Positions 38,818 through 52,034 of a stretch of 64,000 bases of DNA are shown here, in pieces. Each line of letters opens with the position of its first letter. Within the stretch, counting starts at the first letter, position 1. Source of the stretch: Kutzneria kofuensis (GTDB taxonomy: Bacteria; Actinomycetota; Actinomycetes; Mycobacteriales; Pseudonocardiaceae). The notes beneath the pieces are model-generated. The model did not search any database. It was not told where the DNA came from and was given only the letters and a program-made list of their open reading frames with translations. A program made the position numbers and the translations under genes. Location of the stretch: the NCBI RefSeq assembly GCF_014203355.1, contig NZ_JACHIR010000001.1, forward strand, positions 62,001 through 126,000, read 5' to 3'.

Positions 38818-39801
38818 ATGACGATCGCTGCTGGTCATCCGGACCTGTCGTTCGTCGACACCGTGCCAGCCGACCGGGACGAACTGGTCGGCCTGCTGGC
38901 CACCGGTCCGTTTCCCGACGCCTTGCGCGCCGCGATCAAGACCAGCCGGTTGAGCCTGGACCGTATCCAGCACCGGCTCGGGCTGCGGGGCACCACCATC
39001 AGCGTCGCCACGCTCAGCTACTGGCAGTCCGGCCGGAGAAGGCCGGAACGGCCGGAGTCCCTCGAGGCACTGCGCCACCTGGAAGCCGTGCTCGGCGTGC
39101 CGCCGAGCTCGCTGACGGCGCTGCTCGGCCCGCCCAGGCCGCGCGGCCGGCGCAGCCGTCCGACCAGGGTGCTGCCGATCGACGCGCTGTGGTCGCGGCG
39201 GGAGCGGCTGGCCACGCTGCTGTCCCGCGTCGACACGACGTCCGACTGCCGCCTCGGCCGGCTCAGCCAGCACGACCGCATCGAGGTGGCTCCCGACGGT
39301 GGGCAGCGCTCGCTGTGGGTACGCCAGGTGCTGCGCGCGGAGCAGGACGGCGCGGACCGCTGGGTGCTGGTCTACGACGCCGAGTCCGGCCCGGGCGTGA
39401 TCCCGGAGCTGACCAACCTGAGCAACTGTCGGGTCGGCCGGACCGCGGTGGACGAGGAGTCCAGCATCATGGTCGCCGAGCTGGTCTTCGACCGGACGCT
39501 CGCGCGCGGCGACACGGTGATCATGGAGTACCAGCTGAACCACCCGGGCCCGCAGTACCCGGCCAGCGGCAACGCCTACTGCCGCAAGTTCCGGCTGCCG
39601 GTCCGCGAGTACGTCATCGAGGTGCGGTTCGACCAGTCGCGGCTGCCGGCGCGCTGCCAGCAGTACGCGGTGCCGGCCGGCGAGGAGGGCCCGTCCCGCC
39701 GCCGCAACCTCACGCTCGACCCGTCCGGTGGCGTGCACTCGGTCGCGCTGGGCTTCGGCCCCGGCGTGTTCGGCATCCGCTGGGACTGGCCCAGCCGCTA
39801 G
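38818..39801 (+). CDS. XRE-type helix-turn-helix protein
   Basis: A 327-residue protein. Residues about 36-105 form an XRE-like HTH (ALRAAIKTSRLSLDRIQHRL, then ISVATLSYWQSGRRRP), followed by a long C-terminal region rich in beta strands with no family that I recognise. Relatives with this build are common in actinomycetes and are annotated as transcriptional regulators. ATG 38818 follows GAGGAG. A strong terminator ends the unit. It lies just upstream of the alpha-galactoside cluster, but its terminator separates it and no link is shown. Confidence 0.75.
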   Translation: MTIAAGHPDLSFVDTVPADRDELVGLLATGPFPDALRAAIKTSRLSLDRIQHRLGLRGTTISVATLSYWQSGRRRPERPESLEALRHLEAVLGVPPSSLTALLGPPRPRGRRSRPTRVLPIDALWSRRERLATLLSRVDTTSDCRLGRLSQHDRIEVAPDGGQRSLWVRQVLRAEQDGADRWVLVYDAESGPGVIPELTNLSNCRVGRTAVDEESSIMVAELVFDRTLARGDTVIMEYQLNHPGPQYPASGNAYCRKFRLPVREYVIEVRFDQSRLPARCQQYAVPAGEEGPSRRRNLTLDPSGGVHSVALGFGPGVFGIRWDWPSR

Positions 39802-39816
39802 AGAGCATCCCGAAGG

Positions 39817-39849
39817 AGCCCGTCGCCTGCCCCCGGCGGCGGGCTTTTT
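39817..39849 (+). terminator. Intrinsic terminator after the XRE gene
   Basis: AGCCCGTCGCC pairs with GGCGGCGGGCT (one G-U pair) around a seven-base loop, followed by TTTTT. It is one of the few U-run terminators in this GC-rich window. Confidence 0.9.
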
Positions 39850-39865
39850 CGTGGGCACCACCTGC

Positions 39866-39891
39866 TCGTAAATTACGAATAAATATTGACA
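39866..39891 (+). promoter_or_regulatory. Operator plus -35 box, site 1 of the galactose cluster
   Basis: TCGTAAATTACGA (39866-39878) is a perfect 13-bp palindrome; its centre lies 14 bases before TTGACA (39886-39891), a consensus -35. The site precedes the secreted GH27 and SDR genes. The same geometry occurs at 46046-46071 and, degenerate, at 43413-43438. Confidence 0.75.
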
Positions 39892-39959
39892 GCGCGGGTC
39901 CCGCCCCGGCACCCTTCGTCCCGGCAGCAGCGCAGCCGCCAGGAACGAGGTAACTATCG

Positions 39960-42041
39960 ATGTCCCCCTTGTTACGCAGACTCACGCTCGCCTGCGCGGT
40001 GGCGCTCGGCATCGGCACGCTGGCGGCGCCCGTCGCGACCGCCGACGCCGACCACCACGCGAGCGACAGCGTCATCTCCCCCACCCCGTACATGGGCTGG
40101 AACTCCTACTTCGGCCTCGGCGCCCCGACCGAGCAGAACGTGCACAGCGTCGCCAACTTCCTGGTGTCGAGCGGCCTGTCCAAGGCCGGCTACGACATCG
40201 TCTGGCTGGACGGCGGCTGGCAGGCCGACCCGCCCCGGACGCCCGCCGGCGACCTGGCCGTCGACCCGGCGCGCTGGCCGGGCGGCATGCCGGCGCTGGT
40301 CGCGTTCATCCACGGCCTCGGCCTGAAGGCCGGTATCTACACCGACGCCGGCGCCTACGACGGCAAGAACTGCGGCCTCGGCAGCGGCGGCGGCTACTAC
40401 CAGCGCGACGCCGACCAGTTCGCCCGGTGGGGCTTCGACGCCGTCAAGATCGACTTCCTCTGCGGCCTGGCCCAGAAGCTCGACCCGGCGGTGGCGTTCC
40501 ACGAGTTCTCCCAGGCCGTCGCCAACACCGGCCGCAAGATGATCCTCAACCTGTGCGACCCGGTCACCTCCGTCTGGGGCGTGCCGGACTGGCCGTCGAC
40601 CCGGGAGGCCGGCTACGCCTACACCTGGGGTCCGACCAACGCGACCTCCTGGCGCACCGACACCGACGTGGCCTTCGGCAATCCGACGCCCGGCGAGTGG
40701 CCCGCCGTGCTGCGCAACATGGACGACAACGCGGCGCACCCCGAGGCGCAGAGCCCTGGTCACTACAACGACCCGGACTACCTGATCCCGATGCGTCCCT
40801 TCCCCACCGGCGGCACCGAGCTGACCGAGGAGGAGTCGACCACGCAGTTCGTGATGTGGGCGGAGATGGCATCGCCGCTGATCATCGGCTCCGACCCGCG
40901 CACGCTGCCGCAGTCGATGCTCGACACGCTGAAGAACCCGGAGATCCTGGCCGTCGACCAGGACCCGCTGGCGATCCAGGGTGTTCGGGTGGCCGACTCC
41001 GGCGGCGGCAACGTCTACAGCAAGGTGTTGTCCGGCAAGGGAAACCGGGCGGTCGTGCTGCTGAACCGGAGCAGTGACCCGTCGGACATGACCGTGGACT
41101 TCGCCAAGGCCGGCCTGAGCGGCGACGTCAAGGTCCGTGACCTGCGGGCCCGCGCCGACAAGGGCACCGTCACCGGTTCGTACACGGCCACGGTTCCGGC
41201 CCACGGCACCGTGATGCTGAAGCTGTCCGGCACGGACCTCACGCCGGGCAGGGACCTCGGCGGCAACGCCAGCGACAGCCCGGCCCTGGTCCGGTTCGAC
41301 GACACGCACGCCTACACCTTCGTGCGGGACGTGTCCGGCCAGCTCGCGGAGAGCACGGTCGGCAGCGGCAAGTGGGCCAAGCTCGGCGGCCCCACCCACG
41401 ACCAGATCGTCGGCCAGCCCGCGGCCTACGCCTCCGGCGCCGACCGGGTGGACGTCTTCGTGCGCGGCACGGACAACGCGGCGTACCAGCGGACGTTCGA
41501 GCACGGGCGCTGGGGCAACTGGGTGAAGCTCGGCGGCAACCTGACCGACTCCCCCACCGTCGCCTTCACGTCGCCGACGCAGTGGACCCTGGTGGCCCGC
41601 GGCGCCGACGGCAAGGTGTGGCAGCGCGGCTCCGGCGGCTACGGCAACTGGACGTCGCTGGGTTCACCGAGCGACAAGCCGATCTACGGTCGCCCCAGCG
41701 CGGTCGCCGACGCCAACGGGACGCACATCGTGGTGCGGGCCTTCGACGACAGCGCTTGGCTGTGGGAGCAGAACACGGGCTGGACCGCCCTCGGCGGCGT
41801 GATCAGCACCGCCCCGACGCTGCTGGCGACCTCCGGCCGGCTGTACCTGTTCGCCCGAGCCAGTGACTACACGCTGTGGCAGCGCAACTTCACCGACGGT
41901 TCGTGGGGAGGATGGTTCCCCCGCGGCGAGTACGCCAGCAACGCCATCGTCGGCACCCTCGGTGTCGCGGCCGGCGCCAACGGCTCGGCGTGGGTGGCCG
42001 TCCGCGGTGTGGACGACCACGTGCACCAGACCGTGCTGTGA
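39960..42041 (+). CDS. Secreted GH27 alpha-galactosidase with C-terminal lectin-like propeller
   Basis: A 693-residue exported protein with a signal peptide ending near VATADAD. The GH27 barrel begins PYMGWNSYFGLG; the nucleophile is in FDAVKIDFLCG, the acid/base Asp in SWRTDTDV, and HYNDPDYLIP is the family signature. After the beta domain (to about 425) comes a domain of five repeats with a VFVRGTDNAAYQR...WGNWVKLGG pattern, like PLL-type sugar-binding propellers. It should bind a polymer and free alpha-galactose (or beta-L-arabinopyranose) outside the cell. The likely start is ATG 39960. It begins a transcript with the SDR gene 15 bp downstream. Confidence 0.9.
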   Translation: MSPLLRRLTLACAVALGIGTLAAPVATADADHHASDSVISPTPYMGWNSYFGLGAPTEQNVHSVANFLVSSGLSKAGYDIVWLDGGWQADPPRTPAGDLAVDPARWPGGMPALVAFIHGLGLKAGIYTDAGAYDGKNCGLGSGGGYYQRDADQFARWGFDAVKIDFLCGLAQKLDPAVAFHEFSQAVANTGRKMILNLCDPVTSVWGVPDWPSTREAGYAYTWGPTNATSWRTDTDVAFGNPTPGEWPAVLRNMDDNAAHPEAQSPGHYNDPDYLIPMRPFPTGGTELTEEESTTQFVMWAEMASPLIIGSDPRTLPQSMLDTLKNPEILAVDQDPLAIQGVRVADSGGGNVYSKVLSGKGNRAVVLLNRSSDPSDMTVDFAKAGLSGDVKVRDLRARADKGTVTGSYTATVPAHGTVMLKLSGTDLTPGRDLGGNASDSPALVRFDDTHAYTFVRDVSGQLAESTVGSGKWAKLGGPTHDQIVGQPAAYASGADRVDVFVRGTDNAAYQRTFEHGRWGNWVKLGGNLTDSPTVAFTSPTQWTLVARGADGKVWQRGSGGYGNWTSLGSPSDKPIYGRPSAVADANGTHIVVRAFDDSAWLWEQNTGWTALGGVISTAPTLLATSGRLYLFARASDYTLWQRNFTDGSWGGWFPRGEYASNAIVGTLGVAAGANGSAWVAVRGVDDHVHQTVL

Positions 42042-42056
42042 CACGAGGAGTTTCTG

Positions 42057-42749
42057 TTGAGTGACCGTTGTGCTGTCGTGACGGGGGCCGCGTCCGGTAT
42101 CGGCGCGGCCACCGCCCGGCGGCTCACCGCGGACGGCTACCGGGTGATCGGCGTGGACATCGCCGAGGGTCCCGAGGTGGCCGTCCGCGGCGACGTGAGC
42201 GCGCAGGCGACCTGGGACGAGGCGTCCCGGCTGGCCGGCGGGCCGGTGGACGCGTTGGTGAGCAACGCCTTCACCGTCGTCGTGAAGCCGCTGCACGAGC
42301 AGACGCCGGCCGAGTGGTCGCGTCAGATCGACGTCAACCTGACCGCCGCCTACCTCGGCGCGCACCAGTTCCTGCCGTCGCTGCGGGAGCGGCGCGGCGC
42401 GATCGTGCTGGTGTCGTCGGTGCACGCGCGGGCGGGCCTGCCCGGACATCCGGCCTACGCCGCGAGCAAGGGCGCTCTGGTGTCGCTGGGGCGGCAACTG
42501 GCCGTCGAGTACGCGCCCGAGGTGCGGGTGAACACGGTGCTGCCGGGGCCGGTGCTCACGGGCGCGTGGGATCGAGTGTCCGAAGAGGACAGGTTGCGCA
42601 GTCAGGAATCGACGCCGTTGCGTCGGCTCGGTGATCCGTCGGAGGTGGCGTCGGTGGTGGCGTTCCTGCTGTCGGCGGAGGCGTCCTTCGTCACCGGCGC
42701 GGATCTCGTGGTCGACGGCGGCTGGACCGTGCAGAAGGACTCGGCGTGA
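42057..42749 (+). CDS. SDR oxidoreductase, candidate galactose 1-dehydrogenase
   Basis: A 230-residue short-chain dehydrogenase. TGAASGIG is the cofactor loop, followed by VDALVSNAF; VSSVHAR and PAYAASKGAL give the Ser-Tyr-Lys triad; VDGGWTVQ closes the fold. The TTG at 42057 follows GAGGAG. Being co-transcribed with an alpha-galactosidase and sharing an operator type with galactonate dehydratase, it is a good candidate for oxidising galactose to galactonolactone. That assignment is inference from context; the family as such has many substrates. Confidence 0.85.
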   Translation: MSDRCAVVTGAASGIGAATARRLTADGYRVIGVDIAEGPEVAVRGDVSAQATWDEASRLAGGPVDALVSNAFTVVVKPLHEQTPAEWSRQIDVNLTAAYLGAHQFLPSLRERRGAIVLVSSVHARAGLPGHPAYAASKGALVSLGRQLAVEYAPEVRVNTVLPGPVLTGAWDRVSEEDRLRSQESTPLRRLGDPSEVASVVAFLLSAEASFVTGADLVVDGGWTVQKDSA

Positions 42750-42771
42750 ACTCCGTGCGGTGCTGGCCTTT

Positions 42772-43401
42772 TCACCGGGTCAGCACCACGCGGGCCGGGG
42801 CGGCTTCGGCGTCGGTGAGCCGGATCGGCAGGCAGGTCAGCTCGTAGCGGCCGGGTTCGGTGGCGGCGAGGTCCAAGCCCTCGATGATCGGCACGCCGGC
42901 GCCGAGCAGCGTGTGGTGGGCCGGGAAGTCGGTGGCGCCGAAGCACTCCACCGACAGGTAGTCGATGCCGACGAGACGGATGCCCTTGGCCACGAGCGCT
43001 TCCGCCGCCTGGGCGCTGACCGCGACGTAGCCGGGGTCGAACGCCTTGTGGAGCCGACCGGTGGTGGAGTTGGTGGTGCGGAACAGAATCCGCTCCGCGC
43101 CGGCCGGGATCTCGGCGACGTGCTCGGCGCGGATCGGGCTGTCGTCGTCGATGCCGACGACGTGGACCGGCCCGCACAGCACGTCCAGGCCGATGTCGTC
43201 GATGCCGGCCGCGCCGGGGATGAAGTGCGACGGAGCGTCGACGTGCGTGCCCTGGTGGGCCGACAATGTCCACTTGCTGGCGTCGGACTCCTCGCCGCGG
43301 TCCAGGCGGGTTTCCCACTCGCACACCGGCGCGGTGCTGCCCGGCCAGTGCGGCATGTCCGGCCTGATGGCCAGCGTGACGTCGATCAGCACGGGAGTCA
43401 T
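42772..43401 (-). CDS. Cyclase-family metal-dependent hydrolase
   Basis: A 209-residue member of the cyclase/kynurenine-formamidase-like family (PF04199). HQGTHVDAPSHF carries the metal-binding His-x-x-x-His-x-Asp motif; GIDYLSVECFG and FPAHHTLLGAGVPIIEGL are the usual downstream parts. Family members hydrolyse amides or lactone-like rings. It is divergent from galactonate dehydratase, and no classical lactonase is in the cluster, so it may open galactonolactone. That role is inferred. The ATG at 43401 is chosen. Confidence 0.85.
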   Translation of the reverse strand: MTPVLIDVTLAIRPDMPHWPGSTAPVCEWETRLDRGEESDASKWTLSAHQGTHVDAPSHFIPGAAGIDDIGLDVLCGPVHVVGIDDDSPIRAEHVAEIPAGAERILFRTTNSTTGRLHKAFDPGYVAVSAQAAEALVAKGIRLVGIDYLSVECFGATDFPAHHTLLGAGVPIIEGLDLAATEPGRYELTCLPIRLTDAEAAPARVVLTR

Positions 43402-43412
43402 CGTAGGAAGCC

Positions 43413-43438
43413 TGTCAATAAGTATCCATAATTAATGA
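43413..43438 (-). promoter_or_regulatory. Operator plus -35 box, site 3 of the galactose cluster
   Basis: On the minus strand TTGACA (43418-43413) lies with its first base 14 bases after the centre of TCATTAATTATGG (43438-43426), a degenerate form of the 13-bp site (four of six pairs). It sits between the divergent cyclase-family gene and galactonate dehydratase. Confidence 0.5.
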
Positions 43439-43489
43439 TTTGATGTACCCTGAGCGACGACCGGCGACCATCCGTGAGGCGGGGGCCTT

Positions 43490-44638
43490 GTGAAGATCAC
43501 TGACATCGAGACGTTCCTCGTGCCGCCGCGCTGGCTGTTCCTGAAGGTCAGCACGGACGAGGGCGTCATCGGCTGGGGCGAGCCGGTGGTGGAGGGTCGC
43601 GCGGAGACCGTGCGGGCCGCCGTGCACGAGCTGGCCGACCTGGTGCGCGGCCAGGATCCGCTGCGCATCGAGGAGCACTGGCAGGTGTTGCGGCGCAGCG
43701 GTTTCTACCGCGGCGGCCCGATTCTCTCCAGCGCGCTCGCCGGTTACGACCAGGCGCTGTGGGACATCGCCGGCAAGGTGCGCGGCGTGCCCGTGCACGA
43801 ACTGCTCGGCGGCCCGGTCCGTGATCGCATCCGGGTCTACTCCTGGGTCGGCGGCGACCGTCCACATGGGATTCGCGCGGCGGTTCAGGGACAGGTGGAC
43901 CGCGGCTTCACCGCCGTGAAGATGAACGCCTGCGGGCCCATCGACGCCATCGCCACCCCGGCCGACGTCGACGGCGTCCTTGCCCGCGCGCACGAGGCCC
44001 GTGACGTCCTCGGGCCGGACCGCGGGCTGGCCATCGACTTCCACGGCCGCGTCTCCCCCGCCATGGCCAAGCGGTTGCTGCCCCGCCTGGAGGAGGTGCA
44101 GCCGCTGTTCGTCGAGGAGCCGATCCTGCCCGAGTTACCGGCCGACGTGCTCAAGTCCGTTGTGGACAGTTCCCCGGTGCCGATCGCCACCGGGGAACGG
44201 CTGTACTCGCGCTGGGAGTTCAAGCCCGTGCTGGACGCCGGCATCGCCGTCGCGCAGCCCGATCCCTCCCACGCCGGCGGCATCTCCGAGCTGCGCCGGA
44301 TCGCCGCCCTGGCCGAGATCTACGGCGCCAGCATCGCGCCGCACTGCCCGCTGGGGCCGATCTCGCTGGCCGCCAGCGTGCAGGTCGCGTTCGCCACGCC
44401 GAACTTCCTGATCCAGGAACAGAGTCTGAACCTGCACTACAACGCCGGCAGCGAGCTGACCGGGTATCTTCTGGACACCAGCCCGTTCGCCTTCGTCGAC
44501 GGGCAGATGGCCCGACCCACCGGGGTCGGGCTGGGCATCGAAGTCGACGAGGACGCCGTGCGCCGGGCCGCCGAGATCGGGCACGCGTGGCGGTCGCCGG
44601 TGTGGCGGCACGAGGACGGAAGCCTCGCGGAGTGGTGA
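43490..44638 (+). CDS. dgoD: D-galactonate dehydratase
   Basis: A 382-residue enolase-superfamily enzyme. It matches galactonate dehydratase along its length: PPRWLFLKVSTDEG, GFYRGGPIL, YSWVGGDRP, AIDFHGRVSPAMAK (metal Asp about 183 and His 185), VEEPILPE and ATGERLYSR (metal Glu), APHCPLGPI (His about 285) and the C-terminal WRHEDGSLAEW. It removes water from D-galactonate to give 2-keto-3-deoxygalactonate. The GTG at 43490 is the start. The aldolase gene follows 25 bp downstream. Confidence 0.93.
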   Translation: MKITDIETFLVPPRWLFLKVSTDEGVIGWGEPVVEGRAETVRAAVHELADLVRGQDPLRIEEHWQVLRRSGFYRGGPILSSALAGYDQALWDIAGKVRGVPVHELLGGPVRDRIRVYSWVGGDRPHGIRAAVQGQVDRGFTAVKMNACGPIDAIATPADVDGVLARAHEARDVLGPDRGLAIDFHGRVSPAMAKRLLPRLEEVQPLFVEEPILPELPADVLKSVVDSSPVPIATGERLYSRWEFKPVLDAGIAVAQPDPSHAGGISELRRIAALAEIYGASIAPHCPLGPISLAASVQVAFATPNFLIQEQSLNLHYNAGSELTGYLLDTSPFAFVDGQMARPTGVGLGIEVDEDAVRRAAEIGHAWRSPVWRHEDGSLAEW

Positions 44639-44663
44639 ACCACCAGGACAGGAGCCTTGCGCT

Positions 44664-45281
44664 GTGGTGACTTTCGGGAACGTGCTGCGATCGACCCGGC
44701 TGGTCGGCATCGTCCGCGGCGACGGCGTCGGCAACACCCGTGACGCCGTACGGGTGCTGTTCGAGTCCGGGGTGCGGCTGGTCGAGGTGTCCCTGACCGG
44801 GCCAGGGGCGCTGGAGGCCATCTCCGCCGTCCAGGTGCCCGACGGCTGCTGGCTCGGCGCCGGCACCGTGCGGACCCGCTCGCAGGTCTCCGCCGCCATC
44901 GCCGCCGGCGCCACCTTCGCCGTCAGCCCCGCCCTGACGGAGTCCGTCGCCGCCTGCGTCGACGCCGGCCTCCCCATCCTGGCCGGCGCCTTCACGCCCA
45001 CCGAGGTCGAAACCGCACTCTCCCTCGGCGTCGAGGCCGTCAAGCTCTTCCCCGCCTCCGCCGGCGGCCCCGCCTATCTTTCCGCGCTGCGCCAACCGTT
45101 CCCGGACGTGCCCTTCGTGCCCGTCGGCGGCGTCGGCGTCGCCGAGGCCGAGGCCTACCTGGCCGCCGGGGCCATCGCCGTCGGTGTCGGCTCCCCGCTG
45201 GTCGGCGACGCCGCCTCCGGTGGCGACCTGACGGCCCTGGCCGACCGCGCCGCCCGGTTCGTCACGCTGGCGTCGTCATAG
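44664..45281 (+). CDS. dgoA: 2-dehydro-3-deoxy-6-phosphogalactonate aldolase-type enzyme
   Basis: A 205-residue KDPG/KDPGal aldolase. VGIVRG opens the barrel, LVEVSLTGPG has the catalytic-site Glu, LGAGTVRT binds the substrate, and EAVKLFPAS carries the Schiff-base lysine (about 127). It would split 2-keto-3-deoxy-6-phosphogalactonate to pyruvate and glyceraldehyde 3-phosphate; the KDPG isomer is a possible alternative, and position next to dgoD favours the galacto form. The GTG at 44664 follows AGGAG. No 2-keto-3-deoxygalactonate kinase is adjacent. Confidence 0.88.
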   Translation: MVTFGNVLRSTRLVGIVRGDGVGNTRDAVRVLFESGVRLVEVSLTGPGALEAISAVQVPDGCWLGAGTVRTRSQVSAAIAAGATFAVSPALTESVAACVDAGLPILAGAFTPTEVETALSLGVEAVKLFPASAGGPAYLSALRQPFPDVPFVPVGGVGVAEAEAYLAAGAIAVGVGSPLVGDAASGGDLTALADRAARFVTLASS

Positions 45282-45291
45282 GACCTTTCGC

Positions 45292-45993
45292 TCAGCGTCC
45301 GGAGATCCGCTTGAGGTCCTCGCTGGCCTTGTCCACCAGCGCCCGCATCGCCTGCTCGGCGCCCTCGGCGTCGCCTTCCCGGATGGCGTCGAGCACCCTG
45401 CGGTGACTGGGCACGGGGTCGTCCGCGGGATCGGCGTTGTGCACGACCTGGTCGCGCATGGCCAGGCCGCTGGCGATCACCCGTTCCATCTGCACGACCA
45501 GCTGGTTGTGCGTGGCGCCGAGGAGCGCGCGGTGGAAGTCGAGGTCGGCGTCGACGAGCTTGCCGGGGTTGCCGGCGGCCTCGCCCATGCGGGCCAGCGC
45601 GGCGTCGAGGTCGGCGAGATCCTCCTCGGTGGCGCGCTGCGCGGCGAGCCTGGCGGCGGCCGGCTCCACGATGGACCGCACCTCGGCGAGGTGTTCGAGC
45701 AGGTCGGGGTCGGGCGGCCCGGCGGAACGCCAGCGCAGCACGTCGCCGTCGAGCATGTTCCAGCCGCTGCGGGGCCGCACGAAGGTGCCGCGCTTCTGCC
45801 GCGCGTCGATGATGCCCTTGGCGGACAGCACCTTCAGCGCCTCGCGCAGCGCGGTGAGGCTGACGTCCAGCTCCTCGCGCAGGGCGAGCAGGTCGAGCGT
45901 CGCCCCCTCGGGGATCTCCCCGGACAGGATGCGCCGCGCGAGCGCCTCGACGGTCTGCCCGTGCACGCCCCTGAGCTGGTAACCGCTCAACAC
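45292..45993 (-). CDS. GntR-family (FCD) regulator of the galactose cluster
   Basis: A 233-residue FadR-type regulator. The winged helix reads LREELDVSLTALREALKVLSAKGII, followed by RGTFV; the FCD ligand domain shows DADLDFHRALLGATHN and a metal histidine in SHRRVLDAI. Such proteins usually bind sugar acids and repress at AT-rich palindromes. The likely start is GTG 45993 (TTG 45990 or ATG 46008 are alternatives). It faces the solute-binding gene across a region holding the palindrome TACTAATTTAGTA. I infer that it senses galactonate or a derivative. Confidence 0.88.
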   Translation of the reverse strand: MLSGYQLRGVHGQTVEALARRILSGEIPEGATLDLLALREELDVSLTALREALKVLSAKGIIDARQKRGTFVRPRSGWNMLDGDVLRWRSAGPPDPDLLEHLAEVRSIVEPAAARLAAQRATEEDLADLDAALARMGEAAGNPGKLVDADLDFHRALLGATHNQLVVQMERVIASGLAMRDQVVHNADPADDPVPSHRRVLDAIREGDAEGAEQAMRALVDKASEDLKRISGR

Positions 45994-46045
45994 CCCTCCA
46001 CCCCTCATGTGCCGAGGGCATACAGTATCGCCCCGCCACCGGAGA

Positions 46046-46071
46046 TACTAATTTAGTAATATATCTTGACA
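46046..46071 (+). promoter_or_regulatory. Operator plus -35 box, site 2 of the galactose cluster
   Basis: TACTAATTTAGTA (46046-46058) is a perfect 13-bp palindrome with its centre 14 bases before TTGACA (46066-46071). It lies between the divergent GntR regulator and the ABC transporter operon, so it could control both. Confidence 0.75.
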
Positions 46072-46135
46072 CCGCCGCCTCGCCGCTGCAACCTCACTGT
46101 CACTTCCCAACCCACGTGAACGACAGGGGTCGCCG

Positions 46136-47419
46136 ATGACCACCACGGGCTTCTCCCGGCGCAATTTCCTGGCCGGACTCGGCGCCGTAGGCGCGGCCAC
46201 CGCCCTCGGTGGCTGCGTGACCTCGACCGGCAGCTCGGCCTCCGGCGGGTCGGCCACCGGCCCGGTGACCGTGCAGTCCAATCTCTCCGCGCCGGCGGCC
46301 AAGGCCGCCATGCAGGCGCTGATCGACGCGTTCAACAAGAAGGGCGGCGCGCAGGCCAGCCTGAACACCGTCGCCTCGGAGACCTTCCGCACCCAGCTGC
46401 CGACCTACCTCACCTCGTCCAACCCGCCGGACGTGATGACCTGGTACGCCGGCTCGGTGGCCCGCTCCTACGCCGACAAGGGCCTGCTGCTCGACGTCAG
46501 CGACGTGTGGACCGGCGTCACCGGCTACAGCGACGCGCTCAAGCAGCTCAGCACCGACAACGGCAAGCAGATCTTCATCCCGATCAACTACTACTTCTGG
46601 GGCTGCTTCTACCGGAAGTCCAACTTCGCCAAGTGGGGCGTGCAGGAGCCGACCACCTGGGCCGAGTTCCTCCAGGTCTGCGAGACCATCAAGTCGAAGG
46701 GCGTCACCCCGATCGGCCTGGGCGCGGACAACTCGACGCCCTGGGTGGCCTCGGGCTGGTTCGACTACCTCAACATCCGCATCAACGGCGCGAACTACCA
46801 CCGGGAGCTGCTGGCCGGCCAGCACAGCTTCACCGACCCGCAGGTGCACAAGGTGTTCGACCAGTGGAAGACGGCGCTGCCGTACTTCGACCCGAAGGGC
46901 ACGGCACTGTCCTTCCAGGACGCCACCACCAACCTGCTGCAGGGCCGCACCGGCCTGATGCTGATCGGCACCTTCCTGCTCGACACCACGCCCAAGGAGG
47001 ACGTGGACGACATCAGCTTCTTCCGCTTCCCGGTGATCGACCCGTCGGTGCCGGTGGCCGAGGAGGCCCCCACCGACGGCTTCTTCGCCAGCTCCCGCAC
47101 CAAGCGCGTCCAGCCGACCAAGGACTTCCTGAAGTACCTGACCACGGTCGAGGCCCAGGAGGCGTACCTGAAGGCGTCCTCGGGCAGCTCGCTGCCGGCC
47201 AACCCGGCCGCCAAGGACGCCGGCACGGCCCTGATCACCAAGGGCAAGGACATGCTGAACAAGGCGGCCGACCTGACGCAGTTCTTCAACCGGGACTCCA
47301 GCGACGCGCTGCAGCCGACCGCGGACACGGCGCTGATCAAGTTCATCCAGCACCCGGAGCAGATCGACTCCATCCTGACCGAGTGGCAGACCAACGCCAA
47401 GAAGATCTGGGCCTCCTGA
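46136..47419 (+). CDS. ABC transporter sugar-binding lipoprotein
   Basis: A 427-residue family 1 solute-binding protein. The leader SRRNFLAGLGAVGAATALGGC combines a twin-arginine motif with a lipobox (LGGC), so it is probably a Tat-exported lipoprotein. Further on, PPDVMTWYAGS and NLLQGRTGLMLIGTF are typical of sugar-binding proteins. ATG 46136 begins the importer operon, one base from the first permease. From its neighbours the ligand is probably an alpha-galactoside such as melibiose or raffinose. Confidence 0.92.
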   Translation: MTTTGFSRRNFLAGLGAVGAATALGGCVTSTGSSASGGSATGPVTVQSNLSAPAAKAAMQALIDAFNKKGGAQASLNTVASETFRTQLPTYLTSSNPPDVMTWYAGSVARSYADKGLLLDVSDVWTGVTGYSDALKQLSTDNGKQIFIPINYYFWGCFYRKSNFAKWGVQEPTTWAEFLQVCETIKSKGVTPIGLGADNSTPWVASGWFDYLNIRINGANYHRELLAGQHSFTDPQVHKVFDQWKTALPYFDPKGTALSFQDATTNLLQGRTGLMLIGTFLLDTTPKEDVDDISFFRFPVIDPSVPVAEEAPTDGFFASSRTKRVQPTKDFLKYLTTVEAQEAYLKASSGSSLPANPAAKDAGTALITKGKDMLNKAADLTQFFNRDSSDALQPTADTALIKFIQHPEQIDSILTEWQTNAKKIWAS

Positions 47420-47420
47420 C

Positions 47421-48350
47421 ATGACCGTCACCCTCACGGCGCCGGCCGTGGCCCCGCCCGCCGCGGCGGGGCCGCGCCGCCGGCGCCGCACCCTGTCCCC
47501 GACGCTGTTGGCCTTCGTGCTGGTGCCGCTGCTCGTCGAGACGTTCTGGGTGTTCTGGCCCGCGATCCAGGGCGTCTACCTGTCCTTCACCAGCTGGGAC
47601 GGCGTCTCCCCGGCCACCGTCGTCGGCGTCGGCAACTACGTCGAGCTGCTCGGCGACCCCACCTTCGGCCGGGCGTTGCTGGACACCGTGCTCTGGCTGG
47701 TGCTGTTCGGCGGCCTGTCCGCGCTCGGCGGCCTCGGCATGGCGCTGCTGCTGCTCAAGGACCGCCGCGGCGTCGGCTTCTACCGGGCCGCGCTGTTCAC
47801 GCCGGTGGTGTTCTCGCTGGTCGCGACGGCACTGATCTGGCAGGCGATCTACCAGCCCGACGGTCTGGTCAACACCATCCTCGGCGCGCTGGGCCTGGAC
47901 AGCTGGCAGCACTCGTGGCTGGCCGACGCCAACACCTCGCTGTACGCGGTGATCGTGCCGGCGCTGTGGCGGCAGATCGGCTACATCATGGTGCTGTACC
48001 TGGCCGGCCTCAAGGGAATCGACCCGACGCTGTACGAGGCGGCCACTGTGGACGGCGCCAACAAGTGGCAGCAGTTCACCCGGATCACGTTGCCGCAGCT
48101 GAGCAGCGTCAACTCGGTGGTGCTGTCCGTGATCATCATCGACTCGCTGCGCTCGTTCGACGTCGTGTGGGCGCTGACCCGCGGCGGCCCCTACCACTCC
48201 TCCGAACTGCTGAGCACCTACATGTACTCCACCGCGTTCCAGTCGCTGCGGCTCGGCTACGCCTCGGCGCTGGCCGTGGTGATCTTCGTGCTGGCCTTCG
48301 GGGTCATCCTCACGTACCTGGTGCGTGCGTTCCGGGACGCCGACGCATGA
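47421..48350 (+). CDS. ABC sugar transporter permease (MalF-like)
   Basis: A 309-residue membrane protein with six predicted membrane segments. The coupling EAA motif reads YEAATVDGANKWQQFTRITLP. It forms the channel together with the next permease. It lies one base after the binding-protein stop and overlaps the next gene by ATGA. The ATPase is not encoded here; actinomycetes often use one shared MsiK-type ATPase for such importers. Confidence 0.92.
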   Translation: MTVTLTAPAVAPPAAAGPRRRRRTLSPTLLAFVLVPLLVETFWVFWPAIQGVYLSFTSWDGVSPATVVGVGNYVELLGDPTFGRALLDTVLWLVLFGGLSALGGLGMALLLLKDRRGVGFYRAALFTPVVFSLVATALIWQAIYQPDGLVNTILGALGLDSWQHSWLADANTSLYAVIVPALWRQIGYIMVLYLAGLKGIDPTLYEAATVDGANKWQQFTRITLPQLSSVNSVVLSVIIIDSLRSFDVVWALTRGGPYHSSELLSTYMYSTAFQSLRLGYASALAVVIFVLAFGVILTYLVRAFRDADA

Positions 48351-49174
48351 GCCGGCGGCCCCTCAGGACCGGCGGCTACCACTTGGTCGCCGGTGGCATC
48401 TCCATCCTGTGGCTGCTGCCGATCCTGCTGGTCATCGTGACCAGCCTGCGCAGCTTCGACGACGTCGCCGCGAACGGCGTCGGCGGCCTGCCGCACTCGT
48501 TCACGCTGGGCAACTTCGCGCAGGCGTGGGTCGACGGCGGCGAGTTCCAGGCGATGGTCAACAGCCTGATCGTCACCATCCCGGCCGTGATCATCACGCT
48601 GGCGCTGGGCGCGATCTCGGCCTTCGCGCTGAGCCGCTACGACCTGCCGTTGCGGCGGACCGTGCTGCTGGTGATGCTCGCCGGCAACCTGCTGCCGCCG
48701 CAGATCCTGCTCGTTCCGGTGTCGAAGATGGCCGAGATGCTCGGCATCTACGACACGCTGGCGGCGCTGATCGGCGTGCAGATCGGCTTCGGGCTCGGCT
48801 TCTACACCTTCGTGCTGTACGGGTTCATGCGGGCGATCCCGAACGAGATCCAACAGGCGGCGGTGATCGACGGCGCCTCCCCGACGCAGATCTTCTGGCG
48901 GATCATCCTGCCGCTGACCCGGCCCGCGCTGGCGTCGCTGGCCGCGCTGGCGTTCACCTGGGTGTTCAACGACCTGCTGTGGTCGATCACGGTGATCCGC
49001 ACCGACTCCAAGATGCCCATCACGTCGGCGCTGCTCGGCCTGCAGGGGCAGTACGTGTCGCAGTGGAACGTGATCGCGGCGGGCTCGGTGATCGCGGCGA
49101 TTCCGACCGTTGCGGTGTTCCTTCGGTTCCAGCGGCACTTCGTGGCGGGTCTCGCGTTGGGGGCAGTCAAGTGA
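48347..49174 (+). CDS. ABC sugar transporter permease (MalG-like)
   Basis: A 275-residue membrane protein with six predicted membrane segments and the EAA-type loop QQAAVIDGASPTQIFWRIILP. It starts at ATG 48347 within the ATGA overlap with the preceding permease and overlaps the GH36 start by GTGA, so the four genes are translationally coupled. Confidence 0.92.
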   Translation: MSRRPLRTGGYHLVAGGISILWLLPILLVIVTSLRSFDDVAANGVGGLPHSFTLGNFAQAWVDGGEFQAMVNSLIVTIPAVIITLALGAISAFALSRYDLPLRRTVLLVMLAGNLLPPQILLVPVSKMAEMLGIYDTLAALIGVQIGFGLGFYTFVLYGFMRAIPNEIQQAAVIDGASPTQIFWRIILPLTRPALASLAALAFTWVFNDLLWSITVIRTDSKMPITSALLGLQGQYVSQWNVIAAGSVIAAIPTVAVFLRFQRHFVAGLALGAVK

Positions 49175-51222
49175 TTTCGCGGGGGGATCAGCGCTGGACG
49201 CTCCGGTTGGCCTCCACGACCTACACGGTCGGGTTGCCGGAGCACCGGCGCTGGGCCGAGCTGCTGTCGTGGGGCCCGGCCGGCATCGAGGACGGGCCGT
49301 CGCCGCTGGTCAACGTCGGTCGCACGCCGTACCTGACGGAGGCGGACGGGGCGCCGGTGGAGTACGCCCCGTTCGGGCTGCGGCCGTTCTCCGGCGCGGA
49401 TCTGGTGGCCGGACCCGTCGGCGCGGCGCGGGAGTCGTGGTGGTCGTTCGATTCGGCCTCCTCGACCGACACCTCGCTGCGCCTCACCTTCGGCGACGAG
49501 CTGACCGGCCTGCGGACCGACCTGTACTACGAGGTCGTTGCCGGCACGGACGTGTTGCTTCGGTGGACGGAGCTGACCAACACCGGGTCGGCGCCGATTC
49601 GCTTGGAGCGCTTCGATTCCGCCGGGTTCTGCGTTCCGGTCGAGCACGCGCGGCTGTCGTTTCTCATCGGCCGGTGGGCGCAGGAGTTCCAGCTCCGCCA
49701 CGTCGAACTGCCGGCCGGCCGGTTCGAGATCGGCAGCCGGCAGGGCGTCGCCGGGCATGGCTACTCCCCCTGGCTCGCGGTGCAGGACGCCTTCGACGAC
49801 GGTCCGACCTGGGGATTCTCGCTGGCGTGGCCGGGTTCGTGGCGGATCGACGCCGACATCGAGCTGAGCGGGACCTGCCGGGTGCGGGTCGGCCGTCAGC
49901 CGCACGAGTCGGCGGTGCTGCTGGAGCCCGGCGCGTCGTTCGAGACGCCGCAGGTCGCCGCCGCATACAGTGCGGAGGGACTCGGCGGGCTGGCTCGGGT
50001 ATGGCATTCCTACGAGCACAAGCTGTCTCCCGGTGGCCGTCGCGTGCTGTACAACTCCTGGGAGGCAACGGAGTTCGCCGTCGACGCCGCCGGTCAGCTG
50101 GAGCTGGCGAAGGTGGCGGCCGAGGTCGGCGCCGAGCTGTTCGTGGTCGACGACGGCTGGTTCGTCGGGCGGAACGACGACACCGGCGGCCTCGGCGACT
50201 GGACGCCCGACCCGGCCAAGTTCCCCAACGGCTTCGGGGCGTTCATCGAGGACGTCCGGGCGCTGGGCCTGGAGTTCGGGCTGTGGGTGGAGCCGGAGGC
50301 GGTCAGTCCCAAGTCCCGTCTGTACGCCGAGCATCCCGACTGGGTCTACCACCTCGACGGCCGGCCACCGACGCTGATCCGCAACCAGCTGCTGCTGGAC
50401 CTCGGCCGTGAGGACGTGCACGACTTCGTGCTGTCCACTCTGGACGGTCTGTTGACCGAGTACCCGATCCGGTACCTGAAGTGGGACATGAACCGTCCGC
50501 CGACCGAGCGGGGACGGCCCGGCGCGGGTGATCCGGAGTCGTTGGATCTCGACGGCGCCCATGCCCGCAACTACCTGCGGATCCTCGACCACCTGCGGGC
50601 GGCCCACCCCGATGTCGCCATCGAGGGCTGCGCCGGCGGCGGTGCCCGCGTCGAGCTGGCGACCATCGCCCGTACCGATGTCGTGTGGCCCAGCGACAAC
50701 ACCGGCCCGCTGGACCGACTCGCCATTCAGTACGGCTTCCTACACGCCCACGCCCCGCACGTGATGAGCTCGTGGGTCACCGACGCCGCCGGCCTGTTCG
50801 ACCCTCGACCACGATCGCTGCGGTTCCGGTTCGTGCTGGCCATGGCCGGCGCCCTGGGCATCGGGGCCGACATCCGGTCGTGGACGCCCACGCAGCGCTC
50901 GGAGGCCGCCGGCTACGTGGCGCAGTACAAGGAGCTCCGGGAGTTCCTGCACTCCGCCGCCGTGACGATGATCGGCACGCCGACCGACCCCACGTTCGCC
51001 CTCCAGTACACCGGCCCCGACCAGGTCGTCGTGCTGGCCTGGAACACCGGCCCGTTGGACGGCACCCCCGCCCTGTCCGGTCGGTCGACCCGACTCCGAC
51101 TGTCCGGTTTGGACCCCGCGGCGCGCTACGGCTCGTACGGCGGGGCCCACCTGATGTCCGCCGGGCTGCCGGTCAGCTGGGAGTCGGTGGACGCCGACGT
51201 GATCGTGTTGGAGCGGTCGTGA
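49171..51222 (+). CDS. Intracellular GH36 alpha-galactosidase
   Basis: A 683-residue enzyme without signal peptide. After an N-terminal beta-sandwich, the GH36 barrel shows LYNSWEATEF, VDDGWF and GDWTPDPAKFPNG; YLKWDMNR carries the nucleophile Asp and VWPSDNTGPLDR the acid/base Asp; IEGCAGGGAR is the conserved cysteine loop. It should cleave imported alpha-galactosides in the cytoplasm, feeding galactose to the SDR/dgoD/dgoA route. The GTG at 49171 overlaps the permease stop, and its own stop overlaps the next gene. Confidence 0.93.
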   Translation: MISRGDQRWTLRLASTTYTVGLPEHRRWAELLSWGPAGIEDGPSPLVNVGRTPYLTEADGAPVEYAPFGLRPFSGADLVAGPVGAARESWWSFDSASSTDTSLRLTFGDELTGLRTDLYYEVVAGTDVLLRWTELTNTGSAPIRLERFDSAGFCVPVEHARLSFLIGRWAQEFQLRHVELPAGRFEIGSRQGVAGHGYSPWLAVQDAFDDGPTWGFSLAWPGSWRIDADIELSGTCRVRVGRQPHESAVLLEPGASFETPQVAAAYSAEGLGGLARVWHSYEHKLSPGGRRVLYNSWEATEFAVDAAGQLELAKVAAEVGAELFVVDDGWFVGRNDDTGGLGDWTPDPAKFPNGFGAFIEDVRALGLEFGLWVEPEAVSPKSRLYAEHPDWVYHLDGRPPTLIRNQLLLDLGREDVHDFVLSTLDGLLTEYPIRYLKWDMNRPPTERGRPGAGDPESLDLDGAHARNYLRILDHLRAAHPDVAIEGCAGGGARVELATIARTDVVWPSDNTGPLDRLAIQYGFLHAHAPHVMSSWVTDAAGLFDPRPRSLRFRFVLAMAGALGIGADIRSWTPTQRSEAAGYVAQYKELREFLHSAAVTMIGTPTDPTFALQYTGPDQVVVLAWNTGPLDGTPALSGRSTRLRLSGLDPAARYGSYGGAHLMSAGLPVSWESVDADVIVLERS

Positions 51223-52034
51223 CCATCACGTTCGCCTGCGGTTCCGGCCGGATCCTGCAGGCTTCGGTGCGCGGCCGGGACGCCTTCTGGGTCGCGACCC
51301 AGCCCGCCGGTTGGAACCTGGGCGGGGACCGGCTCTGGCTCGGGCCCGAGCGGGACTGGTTCTGGGCCGGCGCCGCCCGTGACGACCTCACCAAGCACCT
51401 CGTGCCCGCCGAGATCGACCCCGGCAACTGGGATGTCGTGCACGAGCGTCCCGACGGCGTCGACCTCGTGCTCACCGCCACCCTTCGGGACCGCAACACC
51501 GGCGCTCCCACCAGCGTCATCGTCGAACGGCACATCACCGTGCGGGCCGACACCCGCTACGTCGCCGAGTACGAGACCGAGACCGTCCTCCACGTCCAAA
51601 GTGGACAGGCCGTCGACGCCTGGAGCATCGTCCAGGTCCCCCTCGGCGGTCGCCTGGAGATCGGCGTCACCGGCGAGTTCTCCTTCCGTGACCACCTGTC
51701 CTCGCCCGTCGATCCGTCCCGCTTCGCCGTCGCCGACAGCGTCGCCACCATCGACCTCGCCGGCCAGCACATGACCAAGTTCGGCGTCACCTCGTCGGTA
51801 GCAACGGGTTTGCTGCGCTACACCCGGCCCGGCCTGGTCATCGAGCGGCACATCGACGTCCACCCCGGCGGCGACTATCGCGACGGCCCCTACCAGCAGA
51901 CCGGCGACGTCATCCAGGTCTTCGAGGACGACGGCCATTACGGCGGCTACGCCGAGCTCGAGCACCACAGCATCGCCGCCCAGCCCGGTCAGACCGTCCT
52001 CGACCGCTGCCGCACCGTCATCCGCGCGACCTGA
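51219..52034 (+). CDS. Mutarotase-like beta-sandwich protein (DUF4380/DUF6786-like)
   Basis: A 271-residue cytoplasmic protein of mostly beta strands; GGDRLWLGPERDWFW and the late GHYGGYAELEHH resemble DUF4380/DUF6786 proteins, which share the galactose-mutarotase fold. I saw no complete aldose-epimerase catalytic His/Glu signature. It is the last gene of the importer operon, starting at GTG 51219 in a GTGA overlap with GH36. A role in interconverting galactose anomers is possible but unproven. Confidence 0.6.
   Translation: MTITFACGSGRILQASVRGRDAFWVATQPAGWNLGGDRLWLGPERDWFWAGAARDDLTKHLVPAEIDPGNWDVVHERPDGVDLVLTATLRDRNTGAPTSVIVERHITVRADTRYVAEYETETVLHVQSGQAVDAWSIVQVPLGGRLEIGVTGEFSFRDHLSSPVDPSRFAVADSVATIDLAGQHMTKFGVTSSVATGLLRYTRPGLVIERHIDVHPGGDYRDGPYQQTGDVIQVFEDDGHYGGYAELEHHSIAAQPGQTVLDRCRTVIRAT

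Follow-up and report, generated by a model that had tools for sequence, protein, structure and literature searches.

What reads the three AT-rich palindromes that each stand at the same distance from a TTGACA hexamer in a gene cluster of Kutzneria kofuensis? The stretch analysed here (the window; 64,000 nucleotides of contig NZ_JACHIR010000001.1, 70.6% G+C) comes from a genome of five contigs. An earlier note, made from the letters alone, had described the palindromes, assigned them to a small galactonate regulon, and named as their likely binder an FCD-type GntR protein encoded in the cluster, which would repress by covering the -35 region. This proposal stood in part. A shared element, the GntR protein as binder, the palindrome axis, and a -35/-10 arrangement at the first and third sites were supported, whereas a -35 role for TTGACA at the second site and the covering of the -35 region were not. 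We think it probable that the FCD-type GntR regulator encoded at 45292-46008 uses the three sites as its operators, in a predicted galactose regulon. The sites are the following.

39866-39891, plus strand: site 1, with a palindrome at 39866-39878 (axis 39872), an AT-rich link at 39879-39885, and TTGACA at 39886-39891 as predicted -35
43413-43438, minus strand: site 2, with a degenerate palindrome at 43438-43426 (axis 43432) and TTGACA at 43418-43413
46046-46071, plus strand: site 3, with a palindrome at 46046-46058 (axis 46052), an AT-rich link at 46059-46065, and TTGACA at 46066-46071 as predicted -35

Sites 1 and 3 carry perfect 6+1+6 palindromes (TCGTAAATTACGA and TACTAATTTAGTA, respectively), and the copy at site 2 (TCATTAATTATGG, minus strand) is paired at four of six positions. 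TTGACA begins at 39886, at 43418 (minus strand), and at 46066, in each case exactly 14 bases past the palindrome centre. Coordinates, palindromes and spacing, read directly from the sequence, are as first described, and so are the positions of the sites relative to the genes: before the GH27-SDR unit, in the cyclase/dgoD divergent region, and in the GntR/ABC-GH36 divergent region. Perfect 13-bp palindromes by themselves are ordinary, with 52 in the window against about 40 expected from composition. However, those at sites 1 and 3 contain 4 and 2 G+C of 13, the lowest among the 52 (the next most AT-rich have 5). TTGACA occurs six times in the window, three of them at these sites. The rarity lies in AT content combined with TTGACA, not in palindrome length.

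The genome search that the earlier note had called for, with a 26-base pattern derived from the three sites themselves, returned these sites and nothing else in 10.4 Mb at up to two mismatches; the reversed control returned no match. Because the pattern was built from the sites, a matrix of foreign sites served as the independent test. From 59 distinct 26-mers we retained 48 sites, omitting four chance-looking one-mismatch matches (L091, L098, L107, and L133) and seven near-duplicates; the matrix used 41 of these 48, all from other genera, after six Kutzneria sites and the atypical site of L081 had been set aside, and its 20 operator columns excluded TTGACA. With the operator part alone, the three sites ranked first to third in the window at 34.15, 30.18, and 28.82 bits. 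The next four matches listed scored 17.55 to 15.24 bits and all overlapped the three sites, and the best score in each of ten shuffled windows ranged from 3.6 to 12.6 bits.

Site-bearing loci were found in Kutzneria, Umezawaea, Kibdelosporangium, Lentzea, Amycolatopsis, Micromonospora, Streptomyces, and Kitasatospora. The element mostly stands before the gene for the ABC-transporter sugar-binding protein (SBP), before GH27-SDR-dgoD or SDR-dgoD genes, or upstream of SDR-GntR-dgoD, facing away. As had been proposed, the comparison supports one shared element and a small regulon. We determined the co-occurrence of the element (at most one mismatch) with homologues of the GntR regulator (E <= 1e-60, the preferred threshold) and of DgoD (E <= 1e-120) in all 249 family genomes compared. 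The element was present in 61 of the 249 genomes: in 54 of the 58 with the GntR gene and in 7 of the 191 without it. At a looser GntR threshold of 1e-40 the counts were 54/64 and 7/185.

Which axis the palindrome has bears on how the regulator would sit on it. Counted from the start of the 13-mer, positions 4, 6, 8, 10, 21-23, and 25 do not vary among the 48 sites, which is partly imposed by the search pattern. Pairs 2/12 and 3/11 were free in that pattern, and both covary as complements about the axis first named: 29 sites are paired against 19.6 expected (P 0.0004) and 20 against 12.8 (P 0.003), respectively, in 5000 shuffles that ignored relatedness. Genome G245 carries AAATACTAAATTAGTATTT, a perfect 19-bp palindrome on this axis without TTGAC, and a Jiangella locus (L043) carries AGTCATACAAGATGACT, with six of eight pairs. 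A second axis, 4 bp further on (position 11), would fit FadR geometry. It has in its favour TTAATTAnTAATTAA, found in several genera of one clade and perfect about that axis. In genome G197 (L122:5893-5921, C1:4199892-4199920), one operator, GTCAATATTAATTACTAATTAATATTGAC, lies between two outward-facing TTGAC boxes. As a symmetric divergent promoter pair on the axis 4 bp further on, it too counts for the second axis. Raw symmetry over the 59 contexts was also higher for the second axis (0.629 versus 0.553); however, the columns alone lead one to expect 0.636 there and 0.491 for the first axis, so that symmetry about the second is no higher than its column expectation whereas the first exceeds its own. 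Because of this excess, the covariation, and the 19-bp palindrome of G245, the axis first named appears the more likely, with the second as the alternative.

The operator also appears to change together with the recognition helix of the regulator. We compared 53 GntR relatives above 40% identity (of 55 in total), in which this helix begins SLT, SKT, SRT, or SQT. The AT-rich element with TTGAC in place was found in 8/8 VSLTA, 4/10 ISLTA, 10/11 VSKTV, and 6/9 SRT loci. The AT-rich part persists in several ISLTA (Amycolatopsis) loci that have no TTGAC, L017, L026, and L032 among them. A C at position 14 is present in all six anchored sites of SRT-type loci and in 2 of the 29 of SLT/SKT-type loci; the helix groups represent few lineages, so that this contrast counts as a handful of events. 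The SRT loci without an anchored site have GTCAT-N5-ATGCA (L034), GTCAT-N5-ATGAT (L042, Jiangella), and GTCAT-N5-ATGAC (L043). The Arg of SRT corresponds to FadR Arg-45, which is reported to read G (PMC4494728). The loci form a natural series in which one helix residue (Arg, Lys, or Leu) varies with the operator, which would be useful for a GntR recognition code. Co-occurrence, neighbourhood, and the change of the site with the helix all support the FCD-type GntR protein as the likely binder.

Several observations weigh against this assignment. In the best 80 of 572 dgoD loci, the 26-base pattern was found 22 times at up to two mismatches and 37 times at up to three. The AT-rich element with TTGAC in place accompanies the GntR relative in 28 of the 53 loci, and in none of the SQT (0/7), LSLTA (0/6), and VSLTV (0/2) loci; no operator of this form was found in SQT-type and Nocardiopsis-type loci. 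The Fisher P for element versus GntR gene, 7e-42, is too small since the genomes are related. When G at position 0 or C at position 14 is counted, the helix contrast weakens to 6/6 SRT versus 8/29 SLT/SKT sites. Four genomes with the GntR gene lack the element at the threshold used: G031 has a two-mismatch variant with TTGAC, G141 a three-mismatch form, and G245 the 19-bp palindrome mentioned above, and in G055 no element was found. Where the Escherichia coli regulator DgoR has W181, T191, and R224, the present protein aligns with His, a gap, and Asp, so that these residues are not kept. Finally, the operator consensus given for the FadR subfamily is TKGT/ACMA, GT and AC being 2-3 nucleotides (nt) apart (PMC4494728; some members listed there have other motifs), and TKGT-(2-3 nt)-ACMA boxes are absent from TCGTAAATTACGA, TACTAATTTAGTA, and TCATTAATTATGG. 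A separate AT-rich block, ATAATTGNTAAWTAA, lies upstream of the GntR gene in three SQT-type Streptomyces loci (L051, L060, and L075); it is perhaps the operator of the SQT branch.

How would the regulator act at these sites? Downstream of sites 1 and 3 we predicted the following elements.

39910-39915, plus strand: predicted -10 CACCCT, 18 nt past the TTGACA of site 1, ahead of the GH27-SDR unit
46089-46094, plus strand: predicted -10 CAACCT, 17 nt past the TTGACA of site 3, ahead of the ABC-GH36 operon

At both sites a -10 element lies 16-18 nt downstream with a start codon further on, which is weakly in keeping with a sigma-70-type promoter and with TTGACA as its -35; a consensus promoter scan (9-of-12) of 39800-46200 gave no match. 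The spacing was also found in other genomes. When no -35 was demanded, the operator core matched 52 times in the 80 dgoD loci plus the window; 35 of these matches have TTGAC exactly 7 nt past the 13-mer, none has it at any other offset from 0 to 35, and the other flank holds one lone TTGAC. Of 43 composites, 33 have a -10-like [CT]ANNNT 17 or 18 nt further on. With the gap freed (0-25), 62 of 66 matches across the 249 family genomes had a gap of 2, as did 19 of 25 across 394 genomes of the class, two of these 25 being from the present genome. Sixteen of the 25 came from one genus (g71 of family f21, taken as Streptomyces); 15 of them had gap 2, and 15 stood beside a GntR, SBP, GH27, or SDR homologue. 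The other seven had no cluster homologue that we could find alongside, and we read them as chance; six of them come from a single family (f28) whose genomes are small. Exceptions are a gap of 3 beside a GntR gene (L150) and a gap of 1 (G108): the spacing rule is strong, not absolute. At L023:6254-6315 and L013:647-711, the predicted -10 ends 8 nt ahead of ATG, so close that some of these promoters may yield leaderless mRNAs.

Site 2 differs. Its TTGACA ends 11 nt short of the cyclase ATG (43401), and no [CT]ANNNT box was present 10-29 nt downstream. Five Kutzneria-type genomes have the site: that of the window, L005 (= G109), L004 (= G126), G057, and G142, the two equivalences resting on coordinates that agree. 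The palindrome is kept in all five, whereas TTGAC is lost in L004/G126 and G142. Given the short distance, the missing -10, and these two losses, TTGACA at site 2 cannot serve the cyclase start, as annotated, as its -35, contrary to what had been proposed for all three hexamers. Since the palindrome is kept where TTGAC is lost, the operator, and not a -35, is the conserved feature at this site. A candidate promoter element on the other strand lies beside it.

43446-43451, plus strand: candidate -10 TACCCT of dgoD, conserved in 3/3 aligned Kutzneria-type loci

These six bases could be the -10 of dgoD; the palindrome would then lie just upstream of it, a usual position for a repressor.

In the mechanism that we propose, a DgoR-like GntR sensor of a sugar acid would bind three AT-rich dyads at a near-fixed distance upstream of TTGAC. 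Site 1 would control the GH27 alpha-galactosidase and SDR genes, site 2 the cyclase/dgoD divergent region, and site 3 the ABC-transporter/GH36 operon as well as the regulator gene itself. The bound dimer would occupy the UP region and abut the -35 in the case of sites 1 and 3 and, in that of site 2, would cover the dgoD promoter upstream of the -10. The genes would be repressed without inducer and released by galactonate or a downstream intermediate. We take repression as the default mode because of the DgoR precedent, the consensus -35 boxes, and the geometry of site 2; direct binding and the exact substrates of the enzymes are predictions from sequence. The idea that the regulator represses by covering the -35 found no support: the palindrome ends 7 nt short of it, and the near-fixed spacing would also suit a regulator that touches the polymerase.

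Near-rigid spacing is unusual for plain blocking, so that activation or dual control must be taken seriously as a rival. The same GntR protein would then activate, or activate and repress, at sites 1 and 3 by contact with sigma region 4 or with the C-terminal domain of alpha. That the spacing holds across genera and target genes agrees with this, as do the palindrome that stops ahead of the -35 instead of covering it, the many -10 boxes that start with C, and the empty consensus promoter scan. However, the -35 boxes are at consensus, which is seldom seen in activator-dependent promoters. The site 2 operator lies inside the likely dgoD promoter, and E. coli DgoR is a repressor (PMC12288454). 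On balance we consider activation at sites 1 and 3 unlikely and retain repression by the GntR protein. In either case, the near-rigid spacing raises the question of how an FCD regulator meets RNA polymerase.

A different DNA-binding protein could also read the sites, if the motif and the GntR gene both tracked another member of the cluster. The obvious candidate correlate is dgoD, which is present in 52 of the 58 GntR genomes. The element was found in 49/52 genomes with both genes, 5/6 with GntR alone, 2/37 with DgoD alone (G142 and G204), and 5/154 with neither, the five last being all one-mismatch matches. As the true correlate, dgoD was rejected: 5/6 against 2/37 means that the element follows GntR rather than dgoD. 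Genome G142 (L138:1-15001), of the same genus as the present one, lacks the GntR gene and site 3, and keeps the aldolase, transporter, and GH36 genes. The palindrome of site 2 and a site 1 that includes TTGAC are also still there, a further point against the GntR protein as the reader and in favour of another; we regard this genome as a natural case of regulator loss. Given the gene-content counts and the operator changes that accompany those of the recognition helix, a reader other than GntR is improbable. It is very improbable that the AT-rich blocks belong to promoters in general, as UP elements or the like, and have no regulator of their own. They do stand at the UP-element position and are AT-rich in 70.6% G+C DNA, but they form a specific palindrome with covariation, number only three in the genome, and are tied in their presence to one regulator gene.

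If the GntR protein is the reader, its predicted regulon can be followed through the cluster, whose features are, in order:

38818-39801: 327-residue protein, directly 5' of site 1
39825-39844, plus strand: terminator-like hairpin between the preceding gene and site 1
39960-42041, plus strand: GH27 alpha-galactosidase (Melibiase_2 and Melibiase_C)
42057-42749, plus strand: SDR dehydrogenase, from its context a putative sugar (galactose) dehydrogenase
42772-43401, minus strand: cyclase-family hydrolase (PF04199)
43490-44638, plus strand: DgoD, D-galactonate dehydratase (NF010624, 584.4 bits against a cut-off of 311)
44664-45281, plus strand: KDPG/KDPGal (2-keto-3-deoxy-6-phosphogluconate/galactonate)-type aldolase (TIGR01182, 162.4 bits against a cut-off of 156.05)
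45292-46008, minus strand: DgoR-like GntR regulator, FCD subfamily (the earlier note took a GTG start at 45993)
46136-47419, plus strand: ABC-transporter sugar-binding protein (SBP_bac_1)
47421-48350 and 48347-49174, plus strand: two ABC permeases (BPD_transp_1)
49171-51222, plus strand: GH36 alpha-galactosidase (Melibiase), its start codon chosen by us inside a longer open frame
51225-52034: DUF6786 protein, immediately after GH36

The regulon would serve to take up and hydrolyse alpha-galactosides and to oxidise galactose by way of galactonate (De Ley-Doudoroff route), a pathway assignment that follows from the protein families. In other genomes the element precedes genes for GH35 (L084), GH59 (L134), a Peripla_BP_4 sugar-binding protein (L122), GH27 (L124), SBP, and SDR proteins. 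Eight genomes of genus g8 (Lentzea-like) carry an additional site, in which the box reads TTGCC. Where one of these was inspected (L123:2047-4514), it stood immediately upstream of genes on the minus strand, among them those for a PfkB sugar kinase and an SMP-30 lactonase. The kinase has a sub-threshold match to 2-keto-3-deoxygluconate/galactonate (KDG/KDGal) kinase, and the two enzymes are tentative candidates for missing steps of the galactonate route, tentative because TTGCC faces away from their genes. DGOK (PF05035) was not found in the present genome in a search whose control detected it in E. coli and Caulobacter; the PfkB proteins of this genome are distant and unlinked, with at most 41% identity. 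What emerges is a predicted regulon for oxidative galactose use in actinobacteria.

The flanks of the cluster were also inspected. The 327-residue protein matched no Pfam or NCBIfam model; it recurs at 96-98% identity in L004, L005, and L132, all Kutzneria-type relatives, and adjoins site 1 upstream in each. The hairpin is a weak call, with three such hits in the scanned region against 1.8 expected from shuffles. The final ~270 residues of the GH27 protein (41226-42041) had no Pfam match at the cut-off applied. Among the 80 dgoD loci, we found the cyclase gene between SDR and dgoD only in the two from Kutzneria (L004 and L005). DgoD of the window and DgoD of Kutzneria sp. CA-103260 share 95% identity. 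Relatives of the DUF6786 protein are present in L005, L127, and L138.

The regulator matches PF00392 (50.7 bits) and PF07729 (97.9 bits), both above cut-off, which places it in the FadR/FCD subfamily of GntR. Among the papers listed by literature searches, in a coverage lacking most subscription journals, none described such a regulator. Its best NCBIfam match is NanR, at 90.5 bits far under the cut-off of 260; NanR reads direct TGGTATA-type repeats (PMC4494728), and the present sites have none. SCO1678 of Streptomyces coelicolor resembles the present regulator in being an actinobacterial member of the FadR subfamily that controls a sugar-acid operon and is encoded divergently from its targets; however, it represses a gluconate operon, not a galactonate one (PMC5425828). 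In Arthrobacter arilaitensis, growth on D-galactono-lactone is reported to proceed through a cluster of four dgo genes that has Gram-negative relatives, and the available part of that report names no GntR protein (PMC2991359). As in the FadR subfamily, a palindromic AT-rich operator lies before divergent genes, one of which encodes the regulator (PMC4494728). In contrast, the half-sites here are of the TCAT-N5-ATGA type, unlike TKGT/ACMA. Helix position 38, where FadR has Arg-45 (PMC4494728), is Leu in the present protein, and in our alignment by eye FadR Arg-35 has no equivalent. It is conceivable, if rather doubtful, that an actinobacterial DgoR-like branch lost the G-reading arginine, came to read an A/T-rich dyad, and operates through a built-in geometry between operator and -35, in which it touches the polymerase directly and toggles sites 1 and 3 between repression and activation instead of only barring access.

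The closest comparison is with E. coli DgoR (7c7e), the best solved relative at E 1.9e-34 (the next scored 4.1e-17). Both are FCD-type GntR proteins linked to a galactonate dehydratase. The metal residues D146, H150, and H195 and the ligand residue R102, named for DgoR in PMC7674646, are kept in 53, 52, 53, and 53 of the 53 relatives, respectively. By analogy, a galactonate-like acid would be a reasonable effector. DgoR binds inverted repeats that overlap the promoter, of which IR1 is CTAAATTGTAGTACAACAATAT (TTGT-N3-ACAA; PMC12288454); the present sites are without GT-N3-AC, and the recognition helix reads SLTALREA here and SRNIIREV in E. coli DgoR. Unlike that of E. coli DgoR, the predicted regulon here includes alpha-galactosidases and an ABC importer, and its operators stand at a near-fixed distance from the -35.

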